From Thraustochytrium sp. TN22 (Eukaryota; Sar; Bigyra; Thraustochytrida; Thraustochytriidae): a stretch of 64,000 nt of DNA. The stretch's first letter is position 1; the number at the start of each line of letters is the position of its first letter. Of the stretch, positions 31,485-39,310 are shown in pieces. The stretch covers positions 1 through 64,000 of the forward strand of contig JABLUY010000076.1 of the NCBI GenBank assembly GCA_013306675.1. The letters are read 5' to 3'. The notes under the pieces are model-generated. The model was given only the letters and a program-made list of their open reading frames with translations. It made no database searches and was not told the DNA's origin. The translations under genes and the position numbers were made by a program.

Positions 31485-31660
31485 ACTACTCGCGCGAGAC
31501 GTACGCGGGCAGCGGCGCAAGCGCGAGACCACGCCTACTAGAGGGTCTCGCGCGCGAAATGTCCTCGGGCAGAGGCGCCAGCGCGAGACTACGAGCACTA
31601 GAGGGTCTCGCGCGAGATGTCCTCGGGCAGCGGCGCCAGCGCGAGCTGCAGCTCGTGCGG
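31485..31660. repeat. About 60-bp tandem repeat over the 3' end of the NEL gene
   Basis: Three copies of a unit containing gagggtctcgcgcg, atgtcctcgggcag, ggcgccagcgcgag and ending near cacta lie in a row. The rightmost copy is the coding end of the minus-strand NEL/U-box gene (residues ...LPEDISRETL, stop at 31598). The two copies to the left are non-coding echoes. Confidence 0.85.
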
Positions 31661-34240
31661 CGCGGCGCGGCGGATGCTGCTGCTGCGGCGGCTGCTGCGG
31701 CTGCTGCTGCGATTGCTCCGCTCGCTGGAGCGCCGCGAGGAGCGCCCCGCGTTAGCGGCGACGCGCTCGCGACTGCGACGCGAGAGGCGGCGTCCCTTGG
31801 CCACCTCGTGAGGCGACTCCGGCTGGGAGGGCCTGGTGTCGAGCAAGCGGAAGATGCTCGCGCGCACGTCAGCGACGGAGCGCGGCACGTTGGAAAAGTC
31901 CATGCCGGTGGCCACCCAGCGCTCGCAGACGTCCGCGTAGGACCATACGGTGGCGCGATCTGGAAGGAAATACACGGGATCGACCAGCGGCTCGCCCTTG
32001 AGGTCCGCAAGGTCCGCAAGGTCCTCCTCTAGGTCGCCGCCATGGCGCGGGAGGGCCAGGTAGTCCACGACGGCCTCGAAACGGTCCTGGCGCTGCCACT
32101 CGGGCCACGCGCGGAGCCATTCGTCCAGGTCCTCATCGCTGATGGCGAGCGCCTCCGTCTTGGCTGCGGCGAGGTCCACGCTGCCCTCGACGGCGCGGTT
32201 GGTGAACAACAGGCGCGCTGACGACACTGGAAGGTCCAACGCGTCGCGGAGGCGAATTTCAAACTCCAAAAAGACCGAGACGTCGTCGTGGCCGCCGGCC
32301 GTCGCAAAGCGGGCCGCGTGCTTGTGCACCACGTCGAGGCGCATGATGCGCAGACCGAGCGCACGCAGCTTGGCGCGGTCGCCGCGCGCATGCGCAATGG
32401 CCGCCACGATCTCGGCCTGCCCCAGTGCCCACACTGGCTTGTCGTCGCACGCGTTGATGGAGTCCACAAGGCGCAGCACGATCTCCACGCTGGCGACGCG
32501 GTCTGTCATGATGGAGTGCATCACCGTACTGACGCGCGCGCAAAGCGGGCCGCGCGTTTCCTCGCTCTGAAATTCGGCCGAGGCCAGCAGCTTGGTGAGA
32601 AAGACCATGACCTCATGCACATAGGCCGGATCCACGTGGGCGCGCAGACTTCGCAAGGTCACGCCAAAGACGTCGCGAACCTCTTTGGGCGAGATGACGG
32701 CGTCACTCTGGCTCGTGCGGACGGCAAAGGCGGCGGGACCGCGCCCGAGCGCCTCGCGCAGCATCGCGATGTCCTCGGGTGACATCCCGACGTCCCCGAC
32801 GAAGAGAGCTCGATCGAGGTCCGTCACGGAGGCGGCGTCATCGTCGAGATCCACATCGTCGCCGCGGAATGGCTCGACCGGAAGCGAGACAAGGGCAGGG
32901 CAGTGGCGAAAGCTCACGATCGGGCCGTAGACTGAGAATGTGGATGGCACGTCAGCGAACCGCGCGCAGGCTGTCACGTAAAAGCCGCCTTTGGCCACGA
33001 AGCCCGCTGGAATGCCCGTCAACGCATTGCACGATACGATATGCACATCGTTACCCACGATGAGGTCCGGGATCGAGACAAGCGCGCTGCATTGGCGAAT
33101 ATCCAGCGTTCCCTCGACGTTGACCAGAGTCTCGGGCAGAGACTCAAGCGCCGGGCAAGTCGACACCTTGAGACCGGCGACCGCGGTCCATGCCGGAAGA
33201 TCACGGAGCGCCCAGGCGTGGAAGATGCTAACAGGCCCCTCGGTGAAGAGCCCAGCGGGCAGGCTCTCGATAAGCCCTGCGCGATCGTTCACCCTAAGCG
33301 CCCCTACCGTGGCTCGCGGTGACGGCAGCCCTGCCGACGCGCTCACGCCCACTTCGCGCAGCCAGAGGCAGCCGCCCACTTCGAGACCGTCCGGAAGCGA
33401 GAAGACACCACTCCCTGTGACAACCATGTCCCCGTCCACGCGCGTGCCGGCGGCCAGCTCGTCGCGTGACTCGAGTCGGAAAAGGACAAGAAGATCACTG
33501 TCCACCAGGTGCAGGCGCGGCAGTCCGCTCTGCATCACGATGACCAACGGCTTGCCAGGTCTCATGCGAATCTTTAACGTGCCGCTTTCGTAGATAACCC
33601 ACTGCACGTCCGCGTTCCTTGCGACCTCCTCGCAGAATCCATGGTCTGCGGGGGCGCCGGCCATGAGGCGAAGGTGTCTCCGGCGAATCGCCGCGCGCGC
33701 ACATGGCATGGCCCTCCAAACATCCCCTGCGCAGCCCGAGGCCTCTGTGCAAATCGTGCCACGCTCCTCTGCACCACTGCAGAGGCATCGAAGGGCCGTC
33801 ACGCCGACTAGTACTGCGAGTGCCATCGGCAGCCAGGCGAAGAGCACGGAGACCGCATAGCTATAGGACACGCACAGTTCGCAGCACGCGGGGCAGCACC
33901 TCTGCGAGGAGCAACGAGTCAGCGGCCGCTCCCCGGACTCGATTGTGCGTTCGGCGCAGCGCAAGCAGGTGGCTGGCCCTCTTGCGTTCTCACGAAGCGG
34001 CCCGCTCGGCAGGCAACACCTGCACACCAGGCACCCGACGAACTCCCAGCCGTCCGGCACGGGCTCGGGGGAGCAGGGCAGGCAGCACAAGCCGTCCAGA
34101 TGCAGGGCCTCCACGCAGCTGAACGAGGTCTTGTTCACGCTCAGCGCCGCCAAGAGCCCTTCGCTCACCTGCGCTTCTGAGGCCACGTGCACCATGCCCG
34201 CCTGCCGCCCGCCCGCTGTCCGCTGCGACTCGTCCGCCAT
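31598..34240 (-). CDS. Membrane protein with LRRs, NEL ubiquitin-ligase domain and U-box-like tail
   Basis: The start MADESQRTAGG gives 880 residues (open 62 codons further). Residues about 40-125 are Cys-rich with several CxxC pairs. A membrane segment (VSVLFAWLPMALAVLVGV) is at about 130-147. Residues about 275-458 hold six irregular 20-22 residue leucine-rich units of the form LxVxxCxALxSLPxxL. Residues about 480-730 match the NEL domain of bacterial IpaH/SspH ligases: the catalytic Cys sits in SINACDDKPVW (Cys-598, codon 32447-32449), inside the family CxD motif, followed by LRALGLRIMRLDVV, DDVSVFLEFEIRLRDAL and EWLRAWPEWQ in family order. After it, LVDPVYF...YADVCERW (about 752-775) resembles a U-box. 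The tail is Arg/Ser-rich. Predicted role: transfer of ubiquitin through a Cys thioester at a membrane. NEL and U-box calls are from motif reading alone. Confidence 0.8.
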   Translation of the reverse strand: MADESQRTAGGRQAGMVHVASEAQVSEGLLAALSVNKTSFSCVEALHLDGLCCLPCSPEPVPDGWEFVGCLVCRCCLPSGPLRENARGPATCLRCAERTIESGERPLTRCSSQRCCPACCELCVSYSYAVSVLFAWLPMALAVLVGVTALRCLCSGAEERGTICTEASGCAGDVWRAMPCARAAIRRRHLRLMAGAPADHGFCEEVARNADVQWVIYESGTLKIRMRPGKPLVIVMQSGLPRLHLVDSDLLVLFRLESRDELAAGTRVDGDMVVTGSGVFSLPDGLEVGGCLWLREVGVSASAGLPSPRATVGALRVNDRAGLIESLPAGLFTEGPVSIFHAWALRDLPAWTAVAGLKVSTCPALESLPETLVNVEGTLDIRQCSALVSIPDLIVGNDVHIVSCNALTGIPAGFVAKGGFYVTACARFADVPSTFSVYGPIVSFRHCPALVSLPVEPFRGDDVDLDDDAASVTDLDRALFVGDVGMSPEDIAMLREALGRGPAAFAVRTSQSDAVISPKEVRDVFGVTLRSLRAHVDPAYVHEVMVFLTKLLASAEFQSEETRGPLCARVSTVMHSIMTDRVASVEIVLRLVDSINACDDKPVWALGQAEIVAAIAHARGDRAKLRALGLRIMRLDVVHKHAARFATAGGHDDVSVFLEFEIRLRDALDLPVSSARLLFTNRAVEGSVDLAAAKTEALAISDEDLDEWLRAWPEWQRQDRFEAVVDYLALPRHGGDLEEDLADLADLKGEPLVDPVYFLPDRATVWSYADVCERWVATGMDFSNVPRSVADVRASIFRLLDTRPSQPESPHEVAKGRRLSRRSRERVAANAGRSSRRSSERSNRSSSRSSRRSSSIRRAAPHELQLALAPLPEDISRETL

Positions 34241-34432
34241 CACGGCAGCAAGCCCGGCGGCAGCGCCCGCGCGCCGCGCGCCCGCCCGCTGCCGCCCTGC
34301 CCCCTCGCGATCGACCTGGCGGCCGCGTTCTTGATTGGGTTTTGTCTGTAGTAATGCGCGTGCCGCGCCGTGCACGCGCGGGTCCGACTCGGACGAGGGG
34401 GGGGGGGCAACAAGCAGCTCGAGCACAGCCGA

Positions 34433-34519
34433 AGCGCGGTTTTAGCTTGCGGATGTGGCGAAGCGCGGTTTTAGCTTGCGGATGTGGCGAAGCGCGGTTT
34501 TAGCTTGCGGATGTGGCGA
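34433..34519. repeat. 29-bp triplicated repeat upstream of the NEL gene
   Basis: Three perfect copies of agcgcggttttagcttgcgg plus atgtggcga lie head to tail at 34433, 34462 and 34491. Perfect identity points to a recent origin. They lie about 190 bp upstream of the chosen NEL start codon, in the expected promoter region. Confidence 0.95.
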
Positions 34520-35035
34520 ATGCAGGTCGGTACCAGCGTCTACCCGTGGCATCTTGTGATTTCAGAGTCTCCAGAAAAGCGAGCTTGTCGAGGTTCAAGC
34601 GCGCGAATGTCTTGGTGGAGAAGACGAGCGCGATTGAAAGCTGAGCATTGACGTTGGAGTCTTCTTGAACACTGTTGTCGTGCAAAGCTCTCTGAGTCAA
34701 GTGCAAGCGCAAGTTTGAGAATTCCAAGTTCGCGCAGAGGTCTGTTGCGGCTTGAAATCCGGCACGTCCGAGTCGTCGAAGATTGGGCTGCAGGGAGCGA
34801 CAGTTGTAGAGACCGCGTCAAGGCGATTTCAATCAGGCAATCTGACCTCGTGCAACGAGCCAGTCGGCGCCTCCCACCCACGCAGCCCCATCACGCACGG
34901 TCCGCACCGCCCAGAGCCCTCCGCACAGCAAGGCTACAGTGGGTGCTTCCTCTCTCCCGGCGCCCTTCGCGCCCAAACGCCCGCGCGCGGCTCGGCACGT
35001 ACGTCTAGCGGGCGAGCGCTGCTGCCGCTGCGGCC

Positions 35036-35764: not shown

Positions 35765-38700
35765 ATGGAGACGGACGACAGCAAGGCGATGGAGATGGCG
35801 CAGGGGTCGGCAGCTTGCACGCGTGGGCGTGGTGAGGCGGCTGTGGAGGCGAACAGGCAGGAGGTGGAGTTGAAGATGTCGAACGACGAGCTCGACGACA
35901 TCGCGATGAGCTGCTACGTGACGAACCTACAGGCGATGAGCAAGGAGGAAGCGAGCGCTGCCCGTGGACACTTTGACGAGATGCTGCTTCGCCTTTGCAG
36001 GGTGCAGCGGCAACTCAGCATGGGGAACTTCGGTCAGCTCGTCTTTGACCTGGCCTCGTACCTTTTCGGAGTGAATGATGCTGAGCTCCGCATCCTCTAC
36101 TCCGGGTCTCCTGATGAGCTCCACACTCTCCAGATGAAGCACGTGGATGCTCTCTGGCGCTACTACGTCGCTCAGAGCAAGGCCAAGGCCGAAATGCTCA
36201 ACATCGATGACGATTCGGCCTTCTCGCAGTACGCAGAGGACCTGCTTCAGCAGTACTGCAGCTTCGTCGGCCACTCGTACGATGACGCGCAAGATGACGA
36301 GAAGCAGCACGCCGTGAAGCAGCGCGACCTGGATCAGCCCGGCGCGGAGCAGCGCGATCTTGCGCAGCTCAACGAGATGCGGCTCACTGAAGAGCAGCCC
36401 GGAATGGGGCAGCTCGACACCGAGCAGCGCTATTCGAAGCAGCCCAACCTGGTGCAGCTCCGTGCGGCGCAGCTCGACTCGAAGCAGCTCAACGTGGGAC
36501 AGCGAAATGAGGAGCACCCCGGCACGGAGCAGCGCAACGTGGAGCAGCGCAAACTTGCGCAGCTCAACAAGACGCCGCTTCATGAAGAGCAGCCCGACCT
36601 GGTGCAGCCCCGTGCGGCGCAGCTCAACTCGAAGCAGCCCAACGTGGGACAGCGCAACGTGGAGCAGCCCGACACGGAGCAGCGCAATGGGGAGCAGCGC
36701 GAACTTCTGCAGCTCAACGAGATGCGGCTTTATGAAGAGCAGCCCGGCATGGAGCAGCTCAGTGGGGAGCAGCCCGAAGCTGAGCTCCTTGACGAGGTGG
36801 ATGAGCCGGAGGACTACGAGTTGCAGGACAATGCCAGCGAGACGGCCACCCTGCCGAAGGTGGGGCACCCTGCCCCTGTTCGGTACATCACCACCAACAA
36901 CTACATCACCAACAACTACATCACCAACAACTGCAGTTGCCTTCAGCATTGCGAGCACGCCCGGTCTGCGAGCCGCTCAGTCGCACATGACAACAACGAG
37001 ACTCGCATCCAGCCAGATGAGCAGGCGAGCATGCACGCTGGCAACGACACTTTCAACATCGTCGCCAACAACCACGTCACCAACAACTACACGTGCGCTC
37101 GCTGCTGCGAGCGCGAGATGCAGCTCTCACGTACTGCCGGCACCGAGCTCACCGCGGTGGTATCTGCTGAAGCTACCACTGCGGCTTGCGCCGCGGCAGC
37201 CCTCCGGGCCGCCTATGCAGACATTGCCAGTCGGAATTCCGTGACTGACTGCGAATCGTCTGGCTACGACGCCGAGAGCGACCTTGATGACAGCGATGGC
37301 GAGACGTCCGATGCGAATTTCAACGCAGCTGTCGCCGACGTCCTCACCACGCACGGCCCGGACGGCGCCTTTCATTTTTATGTTGCCGAGGACCTCAGCT
37401 TCGAAGACGAAGTCCACCGTTTCGATGAGCGCTCCAGCAGGGCCACTTTCTGCAGCGAGGGCACCTCCTACAGCGAGGCCACTGCCTACAAGGAAGAGAG
37501 CTTCGACAGCGAGCCCGATTCTGACGGCGAGCCTTCCGACAGCAAGCTCCGCTCCAACAGCGACCTTTCCGACGCGGACGTGACTGGCCAGTCCTCCACC
37601 GAGGTGGCCGCAGCCGGCACAACCTCCTCCCAGGAAGCCGCCGAGAAGCACATGTTCGAAAGCAAGACCTCCACCGAGGAGGCCGCCGACGGCATGACCT
37701 TCGCCGAGGAGGCCACCTTCTGTGCGAACTCCTCCGAGGAGGCAACCTTTAGCGAGGAGGTCACCGAGGACCTCATCATCTTCACCGAGGAGGCCGCCGA
37801 TGACCTCCACGTTTTCGACGGCGAGACCTACCCCGAGGAGGCTGACGACAGCGCAAACTCTGACAATGAGGTCGCCGAGGATCTCATCATCTTCGACTGG
37901 GAAGCCTCCACGGAGGAGGTCGCCCACGGCGCGATCACCACCAAGACGACCGCCGACAGCGCGAATCCCGTCAGTGAGGCAGTCGAGGACTTCGACGGCG
38001 AGACCTCCCCCAAGGCTTTCGCCGAGGAGGCTGCCAGCGGCGAGGCCTCCGCGAAGGAAGCCGCCGACGGCGCGAACTCCCTCGCGGATGCCGTCGAGGA
38101 CCTCCTCATCTTCGACTACGAGACCTCCACCGAGGAGTCCGCCGATGATATTCTCCTCCTCCTCCTCCTCATTTTCGAGGGCGAGACCCCCACCGATGAG
38201 GCTGACGACCGCGCGAATCCCGCCACCGAGGTCGCCGAAGATCTCATAATCTTCGACTGCGAGACCTCCGCTGAGGAGGCCGCCCATGGCATGGTCTCCA
38301 CCAGGGCAGCTGCCGACGGCGTGAACCAAACCGAGAAGGTTGCCGATGGCCTCCTCATCTTCAACAGCGATACCTCCACCGAAGAGGCCGGCGAAGGCGA
38401 GGCGCTCACCTCGAGGACGGACCAGATCCTCGTCAACAATAGCGACGAGCTGTTGCATGTGGAACGCGAGGCCAACGCGAAGCTCGGCTGCGACAACGAC
38501 GCCAAGGCGACGCCGACGAGCGGATTCCAGCATGAGACGTCTCGCCTTGCGCAGGACGCTGCTTCGTTTGGACGGGAGTGCGATGACGACCCCTTCCTCG
38601 CCCTGGGCGGCCCGGGCGACAACGTCGACGATGCCTTCTTCGACACGCTCTTTGAGGGTCTCGACCCGCCCACAACGACGATCGGCACGAGCACGGAGGC

Positions 38701-39310
38701 AGCGCCGGCCTGCCCAGCCCCGGGCGCTTCGCCAAGCGACTCCACCGAGGTGGGCTCGGAGCTGGCTTCTGGCGTCATGTGCCCCTTCACACCGCACCGG
38801 ACCGCAGCACCGTCGCTCTGCGCCTCGCTGCGGGATCGCCTGGGCGAGCTCGCGTGGGCCTTCTTCGAGTTCACGCTCGCCCTGCTCATCTTCCTGATGC
38901 TTGTCATCACCAAGCGCACGAGCATTCCCTCCAAGGTCCGAGCTTTGGACCCGGAGGTGCCGCCAGTCAAGCAATCGCCGCTCACTGCAGTGCCTCTGAC
39001 GGTGCCCGACACGGAGGCGCAGATGGACGAAGTCTCCGGTGAAGATGCCAGCGCGGATCTCGCAGCAGGCATCGCTCACCTTCAGAAGCAACTTGCGCAG
39101 GAGCGTGATCTGGCGGAGAAGCTTACACGCCGAGCGGCGCAGCTGGCGCACGAGATTGAAGTTGAGACCACGCGCCAGCAGCACCAGCAGAAGCAGGAGC
39201 CCACGCGCGCACACCAGACCACCTTGGCGACTTTCGGGCAGGTTCCCGAGGAGCTCGACTCCTTCGACCCTTCCATGTTGCACATGGACTGGCTGAGGGC
39301 TGCTTTCTAA
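35765..39310 (+). CDS. Giant acidic single-pass protein with pentad repeats and SIM-like array
   Basis: 1181 residues from METDDSKAMEMA. Residues 30-180 are a helical head. Residues about 186-340 are some thirty five-residue units of the type x-Q-(L/R/P)-(N/D/G)-x (AQLDS, EQRNV, KQPNV). At 374-391 and 430-448 are two boxes of N-N-(Y/H)-(I/V)-T-N-N, each followed by a Cys cluster (NCSCLQHC; YTCARCC). Residues about 500-880 are acidic and contain repeated blocks built round E-D-L-I-I-F-D: near 668, 679, 705, 778, 825 and 861, each followed by ET-S-T-E-E-A. These look like SUMO-interacting motifs, a hydrophobic core flanked by acid. A membrane segment (LAWAFFEFTLALLIFLMLVIT) is at 1029-1049 and a coiled coil follows at about 1088-1140. 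No known family as a whole. It has no enzyme motif and should act as a scaffold or receptor-like protein. Confidence 0.85.
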   Translation: METDDSKAMEMAQGSAACTRGRGEAAVEANRQEVELKMSNDELDDIAMSCYVTNLQAMSKEEASAARGHFDEMLLRLCRVQRQLSMGNFGQLVFDLASYLFGVNDAELRILYSGSPDELHTLQMKHVDALWRYYVAQSKAKAEMLNIDDDSAFSQYAEDLLQQYCSFVGHSYDDAQDDEKQHAVKQRDLDQPGAEQRDLAQLNEMRLTEEQPGMGQLDTEQRYSKQPNLVQLRAAQLDSKQLNVGQRNEEHPGTEQRNVEQRKLAQLNKTPLHEEQPDLVQPRAAQLNSKQPNVGQRNVEQPDTEQRNGEQRELLQLNEMRLYEEQPGMEQLSGEQPEAELLDEVDEPEDYELQDNASETATLPKVGHPAPVRYITTNNYITNNYITNNCSCLQHCEHARSASRSVAHDNNETRIQPDEQASMHAGNDTFNIVANNHVTNNYTCARCCEREMQLSRTAGTELTAVVSAEATTAACAAAALRAAYADIASRNSVTDCESSGYDAESDLDDSDGETSDANFNAAVADVLTTHGPDGAFHFYVAEDLSFEDEVHRFDERSSRATFCSEGTSYSEATAYKEESFDSEPDSDGEPSDSKLRSNSDLSDADVTGQSSTEVAAAGTTSSQEAAEKHMFESKTSTEEAADGMTFAEEATFCANSSEEATFSEEVTEDLIIFTEEAADDLHVFDGETYPEEADDSANSDNEVAEDLIIFDWEASTEEVAHGAITTKTTADSANPVSEAVEDFDGETSPKAFAEEAASGEASAKEAADGANSLADAVEDLLIFDYETSTEESADDILLLLLLIFEGETPTDEADDRANPATEVAEDLIIFDCETSAEEAAHGMVSTRAAADGVNQTEKVADGLLIFNSDTSTEEAGEGEALTSRTDQILVNNSDELLHVEREANAKLGCDNDAKATPTSGFQHETSRLAQDAASFGRECDDDPFLALGGPGDNVDDAFFDTLFEGLDPPTTTIGTSTEAAPACPAPGASPSDSTEVGSELASGVMCPFTPHRTAAPSLCASLRDRLGELAWAFFEFTLALLIFLMLVITKRTSIPSKVRALDPEVPPVKQSPLTAVPLTVPDTEAQMDEVSGEDASADLAAGIAHLQKQLAQERDLAEKLTRRAAQLAHEIEVETTRQQHQQKQEPTRAHQTTLATFGQVPEELDSFDPSMLHMDWLRAAF
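36320..36790 (+). repeat. 15-bp coding repeat array
   Basis: About thirty diverged 15-bp units encode the pentads of the giant acidic protein. Larger blocks also repeat inside (gtgcagctccgtgcggcgca and gtgcagccccgtgcggcgca about 150 bp apart), showing growth by unequal exchange at two scales. Confidence 0.85.

Follow-up and report, generated by a model that had tools for sequence, protein, structure and literature searches.

A thraustochytrid gene family with a NEL catalytic lobe and a U-box-like tail in the position of the thumb

The ipaH genes of Shigella consist of a constant enzyme part and a variable part made of leucine-rich repeats (LRRs). In E3 ubiquitin ligases of the RBR type, the module that docks the ubiquitin-conjugating enzyme (E2) is separate from the one that carries the catalytic Cys, and in U-boxes the residues that contact the E2 are a hydrophobic residue in loop 1, an aromatic residue in the helix and a Pro in loop 2. 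For SspH1, the available part of PMC12506513 describes a helical thumb that follows the catalytic lobe and binds ubiquitin-loaded E2 (E2-Ub). Here, we analyse a gene in a stretch of 64,000 nucleotides from Thraustochytrium sp. TN22 (positions 1 to 64,000 of contig JABLUY010000076.1, assembly GCA_013306675.1; hereafter "the window"). The gene is a single-exon open reading frame (ORF) of 880 amino acids on the minus strand (31598..34240), with its ATG at 34240 in the context GCCGTGATGGCG. With a probability of roughly 0.55, it belongs to a multigene family, native to the eukaryote, that encodes Cys-dependent E3 ligases in which a NEL lobe is combined with a U-box-like module that replaces the helical E2-Ub-binding thumb.

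The Pfam profile PF14496 matches residues 543-717 of the window protein (32090..32614; this and all other parts of the gene are on the minus strand) at 57.9 bits, with a cut-off of 24 (E 1.2e-15), and NEL is the sole Pfam domain found in the protein. The NCBIfam profiles for SlrP, SspH2 and IpaH give weak matches to the same part (E 0.01-0.03), and SspH1 and SlrP chains match the protein at E ~0.001. The motif order recognised in the original prediction, that is, a Cys in NACDD followed by LRALGLRIMRLDVV, DDVSVFLEF and EWLRAWPEWQ, was confirmed in the ORF. The Cys belongs to the CxD motif Cys598-Asp599-Asp600 (32441..32449), and C598 aligns with C492 of SspH1, as derived from the alignment offset and the residue numbering in the available part of PMC12506513. 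The structure predicted for the window protein has an all-helical catalytic lobe of the IpaH/SspH type. Profile score, CxD motif and predicted fold all agree with the NEL domain proposed originally. We infer that the family members act as Cys-dependent E3 ubiquitin ligases.

The genome (37.9 Mb, 453 contigs) contains NEL matches at 25 places, all of which score over the cut-off and are free of stops. Their open frames span 471-3511 codons. None of the 14 control genomes contains a match. The contigs that bear these copies are up to 432 kb long, and some hold several copies (C335 four, C158 three and C453 four). When the 25 NEL cores are aligned, the C and D of CxD, ARG and both Trp of WxxW are invariant. 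Paralogues outside the window's own subfamily are 32-48% identical to the window core. The part comprising NEL and tail has a GC content of 0.63-0.72 (0.80-0.93 at third codon positions), similar to that of the window (0.59-0.73 in 2-kb bins). Contig C335 (G000:C335) is 14.5 kb long and is filled by its four tandem copies; since two of them show 100% identity in their 5' parts along the farthest ~550 nt compared, the copy number there may be under-assembled.

The LPxxL-type leucine-rich units noted originally are present in front of the NEL lobe, but the LRR signal of the window protein is weak, without a Pfam LRR match. The repeats, which are of the IpaH/XopL style, lie at about residues 280-457 (32870..33403) and were placed using the visible units and phmmer, which aligned residues 260-416 with the solved LRR protein 8z5u (E 4.7e-4). 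A Pfam scan of front ends covered 15 paralogues, with nine others outside the scan; LRR matches at E <0.001 precede the NEL in four of the 15, and the same scan identified SPRY in two paralogues (E 5e-15 and 1.3e-13), Arm in one (4e-6) and SAM in one (4.5e-5). Variable front ends of this kind suggest a substrate-recognition repertoire.

Named relatives of the window protein in a protein search are two proteins of Hondaea fermentalgiana, also a thraustochytrid, P0004 and P0005, which are 44 and 40% identical over the matched region and have the same kind of tail; P0004 also matches the XopL profile in its LRRs (1.3e-11). A Hondaea entry carries the database name NEL domain-containing protein, so that the presence of NEL in a eukaryote was already annotated. 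A further protein, P0003 (1462 amino acids, named PRP6 homologue at NCBI), has TPR-type repeats followed by LRR, NEL and tail, and is either a genuine fusion or the product of gene models merged in annotation.

A search for relatives with P0010 yielded 34 proteins, P0010 included, among 8000 scored candidates, and these were divided into two classes. Class A comprises 12 proteins (P0030-P0041), the named sources being Enterobacter asburiae and Bradyrhizobium; after the lobe, they have a charged, helical-looking sequence without the U-box-like tail (P0041 is cut short). Class B comprises 22 proteins (P0008-P0029) from JGI, ENA and NCBI contigs of up to 181 kb, and is made up of LRR, NEL and a tail with C-x-[LIF]-T, Y-x-[FYL], W and G-x-[HD]-P in this order. 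A tail related to that of the window protein is present in all 22. When the window protein, five other eukaryotic proteins and 21 of the 22 class B proteins are aligned, the tails line up, with gaps. The class B proteins are presumably bacterial, and the occurrence of equally sized contigs suggests that several of the genes lie on one contig. No class B locus was confirmed in the GTDB genomes or viral contigs scanned. On plasmids, the best matches listed are NEL proteins of <30% identity or matches to LRRs only, and the phage collection gave one LRR-type match, to two records of an Edwardsiella phage. Plasmid matches from Acetobacter and Deinococcus (H26-H28, H32, H33) share 38-43% identity in their LRRs with those of P0029, and some are listed under DUF6745 proteins; the P0029 type of LRR is therefore more widespread than NEL proteins.

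The U-box-like tail of the window protein lies at about residues 745-800 (31841..32008), as judged from alignments, profile comparison and predicted topology. The catalytic lobe ends at about residue 722 by alignment offset to SspH1/SlrP-type chains, and the structural match of the window model to SspH2 ends at model residue 218, which is protein residue 723; the tail thus occupies the place of the thumb. The two long antiparallel helices that form the IpaH/SspH thumb after the lobe are not predicted in the window model, and for this reason we treat the family as a separate class of NEL-lobe proteins rather than as IpaH/SspH. A profile of ten class A thumbs gave no match in hhalign to the eukaryotic tails (0.06%) or the class B tails (0.13%). 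The tail can be aligned in all 25 copies, with three invariant columns. A genome-wide search with the tail as query found 20 of the 25 copies, missing those on C332, C44, C288, C188 and C156, and 20 of the 21 places with a tail lie behind a NEL, the remaining one being at a contig end (C358:2-211).

The name U-box-like, given to the tail in the original prediction, is upheld by predicted topology and by a profile match that runs through the class B relatives. In hhalign, a profile of seven U-boxes (five from the same genome and two from plants) matched 13 class B tails at 88.8% with a score of 33.4; column shuffles scored 10.1 +/- 2.4 (highest 20.5, none of 200 as high) and the reversed control 9.6. 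For a mixed set of 27 tails, the match was 78.3%, again with 0/200 shuffles as high. In a locational test with a U-box hidden Markov model (HMM), 15 of 18 class B rows had their best domain in the tail, where 2.5 were expected. The predicted tail has the element order of a U-box, hairpin then helix, with strands and two short helices of 11 and 12 residues. By eye, the loop-1 hydrophobic residue and the helix Trp are kept in most tails, and the loop-2 Pro is kept in class B.

A number of results weigh against a U-box, above all for the eukaryotic tails. No single tail, among 25 eukaryotic and 13 class B tails, matches the Pfam U-box (PF04564), and the genome's own seven U-box hits are located elsewhere. 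Searches of PDB with single tails or tail profiles (hmmsearch) gave no significant U-box, the Prp19 U-box appearing at E 1 (18 rows). The eukaryotic tails alone match the seven-U-box profile at 11%, with 1/200 shuffles as high; with the five own-genome U-boxes and realignment on, the values are 28.5% for class B and 3.7% for eukaryotic tails. With the U-box HMM, the tail held the best domain in 10 eukaryotic rows out of 22 reported (2.2 expected), and the corresponding region held it in four of nine class A rows (1.0 expected; these four are near-identical); the HMM reported no domain in 14 of 63 rows, the window protein included, and its scores are near or below zero save for P0029 (9.7, independent E-value 0.0032). 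The loop-2 Pro is lost in the eukaryotic copies, and model confidence (pLDDT) over the tail blocks is 55-83. The list of structures matching the window model contains no U-box and is filled by the NEL lobe; since its rows 2-7, except SspH2, enter the tail at a root-mean-square deviation of 4.4-9.6, it barely tests the tail. The best Pfam match of class B tails was Phage_Nu1 (2/13, best E 0.0046), which we took as chance. Weak matches were also seen to NleG (PF06416; 1/13 class B tails at E 0.058, 0/25 eukaryotic tails) and, in one eukaryotic tail of 25 each, to MDHAR3-like_C (E 0.09) and CCAP (E 0.24). Finally, eukaryotic and class B tails match each other at only 17.3% in profile comparison, so that they are linked mainly by following the same lobe and by lining up in the joint alignment. 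Because the Pfam and PDB searches yielded no significant U-box, the U-box claim rests on profile comparison, the locational test and predicted topology.

These results leave room for a tail that is a separate kind of module without relation to U-boxes, whose hairpin-helix order arose by chance; the thumb would then have been lost, and E2 would be bound directly by the NEL lobe or in a new way by the tail. The failure of single tails and tail profiles in the Pfam and PDB searches, the weak signal of the eukaryotic tails and the near absence of similarity to class A thumbs speak for such a module, whereas the class B match that no shuffle equalled, the P0029 hit and the predicted element order speak against it. 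We consider it unlikely, but it deserves attention.

In a tree of 63 NEL domains, one branch separates all 30 eukaryotic rows from the rest (support 100/99), another separates class A (99/97), and class B forms one group (21 rows, 96/91) except for the long-branched P0029. After removal of seven long-branch rows, each of the three groups is one side of a branch, with values of 98, 94 and 100 in the Shimodaira-Hasegawa-like approximate likelihood ratio test (SH-aLRT). Gain from bacteria, as originally proposed, remains likely, but the trees are unrooted. The other part of that proposal, addition of the tail in the eukaryote, probably does not hold: related tails occupy the same position in the 22 class B proteins, presumed to be bacterial, and therefore the combination of NEL and U-box-like tail was probably inherited rather than assembled in the eukaryote, the donor bacterium presumably bearing the fusion already. 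The reverse course, in which the NEL lobe or its U-box-like form arose in a eukaryote and was taken up by bacteria, is compatible with an unrooted tree and with the deep divergence of the eukaryotic paralogues. It appears rather improbable, since NELs occur in many named bacteria, and Hondaea is the sole named eukaryote among the matches listed.

Within the family, the ratio of nonsynonymous to synonymous substitution rates (dN/dS) in seven paralogue pairs is 0.07-0.39 for NEL, 0.10-0.65 for the tail and 0.33-0.84 for the LRR part, and both dN and dN/dS of the LRRs exceed the NEL values in every pair. The pairwise ratios are below 1 throughout and show no positive selection on the LRRs. Among four recent pairs, two have nearly identical DNA from the NEL start onward: the C453 pair is 95-99% identical per 150-nt bin there and 65-94% upstream, and the C158 pair is 95-100% identical (last bin 83%) and 42-82% upstream, the rise to 100% falling in the bin immediately before the NEL. 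The two C335 pairs have no clear pattern of constant enzyme and variable LRR. A near-constant half of NEL and tail behind a variable LRR half suggests that the enzyme half may have been exchanged or gene-converted between copies.

As a further and more tentative reading, possible but somewhat less secure than the main one, we propose a hybrid relay E3: the thumb would have been exchanged for a U-box-type E2 dock that feeds the NEL Cys, with an RBR-like division of labour reached independently, and the family would be a diversified, partly membrane-bound, eukaryote-native repertoire of receptor E3s whose recognition halves vary and whose enzyme half has been homogenised in some arrays. In the mechanism that we consider most likely under the main reading, the tail would dock ubiquitin-charged E2, ubiquitin would move to Cys598 as a thioester, and it would then be transferred to a substrate bound by the N-terminal part, which varies between copies (LRR or, elsewhere, SPRY with LRR, Arm or SAM). 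The U-box-like module probably does the job of the thumb. E2 docking by the tail is plausible, given the conserved loop-1 and helix positions in most tails and the loop-2 Pro in class B only.

The original prediction had envisaged two unrelated E3 types in one chain, which would require the tail to be a true U-box acting as an independent RING-type E3 while the NEL works separately. The U-box-like profile and the dN/dS of the tail accord with this, but it would leave the NEL without a thumb, and tails occur behind a NEL at all places but the one at a contig end. We regard it as quite improbable; because the tail sits where characterised NELs have the E2-Ub-binding thumb, a module swap fits better than an added second E3. 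Recent bacterial contamination or a pseudogene is rejected as next to impossible: the literature found, in its available parts, describes NEL enzymes from bacteria only, but the number of intact copies, the long contigs, the window-like GC, the SPRY, Arm and SAM fusions, the relatives in Hondaea and the single eukaryotic group in the tree are strong evidence to the contrary.

The membrane segment and Cys-rich head described originally are both present, the head at about residues 42-125 (33866..34117, read from the translation) and a transmembrane-like hydrophobic segment at residues 129-147 (33800..33856; Kyte-Doolittle mean 2.34 over 19 residues), but they are restricted to one subfamily. Besides the window, Cys-rich heads occur in C335, C158 and C453 copies. 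A simple hydropathy scan found transmembrane-like peaks in 12 of the 25 ORFs, those of C348 and C53 being judged to sit within repeat domains. As a member of this subfamily, the window copy probably works at a membrane. A role of the family against intruders is a guess.

The protein ends in a Ser/Arg-rich low-complexity C-terminus (31598..31798, read from the translation) that closes with LAPLPEDISRETL. An end resembling APxPExxFxR is common to several membrane-type members (window 31598-31640; C335, C158 and C453:250625 copies; P0002), and is perhaps a docking or sorting peptide. A 60-bp tandem repeat (2.7 copies, window 31489-31645) runs from the gene end to beyond the stop and re-encodes the C-terminal peptide LALAPLPEDISR. 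About 190 bp upstream of the ATG, a 29-bp unit occurs in ~3 perfect copies (window 34430-34520), possibly in the promoter or 5' untranslated region. Ten neighbouring ORFs of the window were scanned, and three gave a match (WD40 repeats, CoA-transferase family III and a sub-cut-off AAA_16). An ORF of 1181 amino acids at 35765-39310 (plus strand) contains 150-bp and 15-bp tandem repeats and ITNNY repeats, and has no Pfam match.

In the available parts of the literature, including PMC9320238 and PMC6557245, we found no description of a eukaryotic NEL family or of a NEL with a U-box-like end; NEL is mentioned among bacteria-like domains in algal NLR genes in the available part of PMC7145615, and that of PMC7029713 merely lists the profile. 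If the family proves to be native to a eukaryote and to dock E2 by a different end, NEL chemistry can be domesticated and its E2-binding part exchanged. The family would offer a natural chimera for probing how NELs take ubiquitin from E2, and possibly an LRR/SPRY-E3 recognition repertoire in a protist.

Compared with known systems, the analogy to RBR ligases is that one module docks the E2 and another carries the catalytic Cys; no sequence relation is claimed, and the zinc-binding RING1/RING2 are absent here. With U-box ligases (PF04564) and NleG effectors (PF06416), the tail shares the predicted hairpin-helix order and, in most copies as judged by eye, the loop-1 hydrophobic residue and the helix Trp, but it differs in its lack of a Pfam U-box score, in the loss of the loop-2 Pro in eukaryotic copies and in its position behind a NEL. 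The Hondaea proteins belong to the same family as the window protein and are known from database annotations alone, one being named Disease resistance protein TAO1. Class B shares LRR, NEL and U-box-like tail in the same order, together with CxD; its proteins have 471-822 amino acids, with no SPRY or Arm among precomputed domains, and their tails keep the C-x-x-T and G-[TSL]-[HD]-P loops, whereas the eukaryotic tails have lost both. IpaH, SspH and SlrP of Shigella and Salmonella share the NEL lobe, the CxD Cys and the LRRs in front, whereas the present family is in a eukaryotic genome, has a U-box-like tail in place of a predicted helical thumb, and includes some copies whose front ends are of the membrane, SPRY, Arm or SAM type. 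The likeness to ipaH extends to the pairing of an enzyme half that hardly varies with an LRR half that does, seen here in two of four recent pairs.
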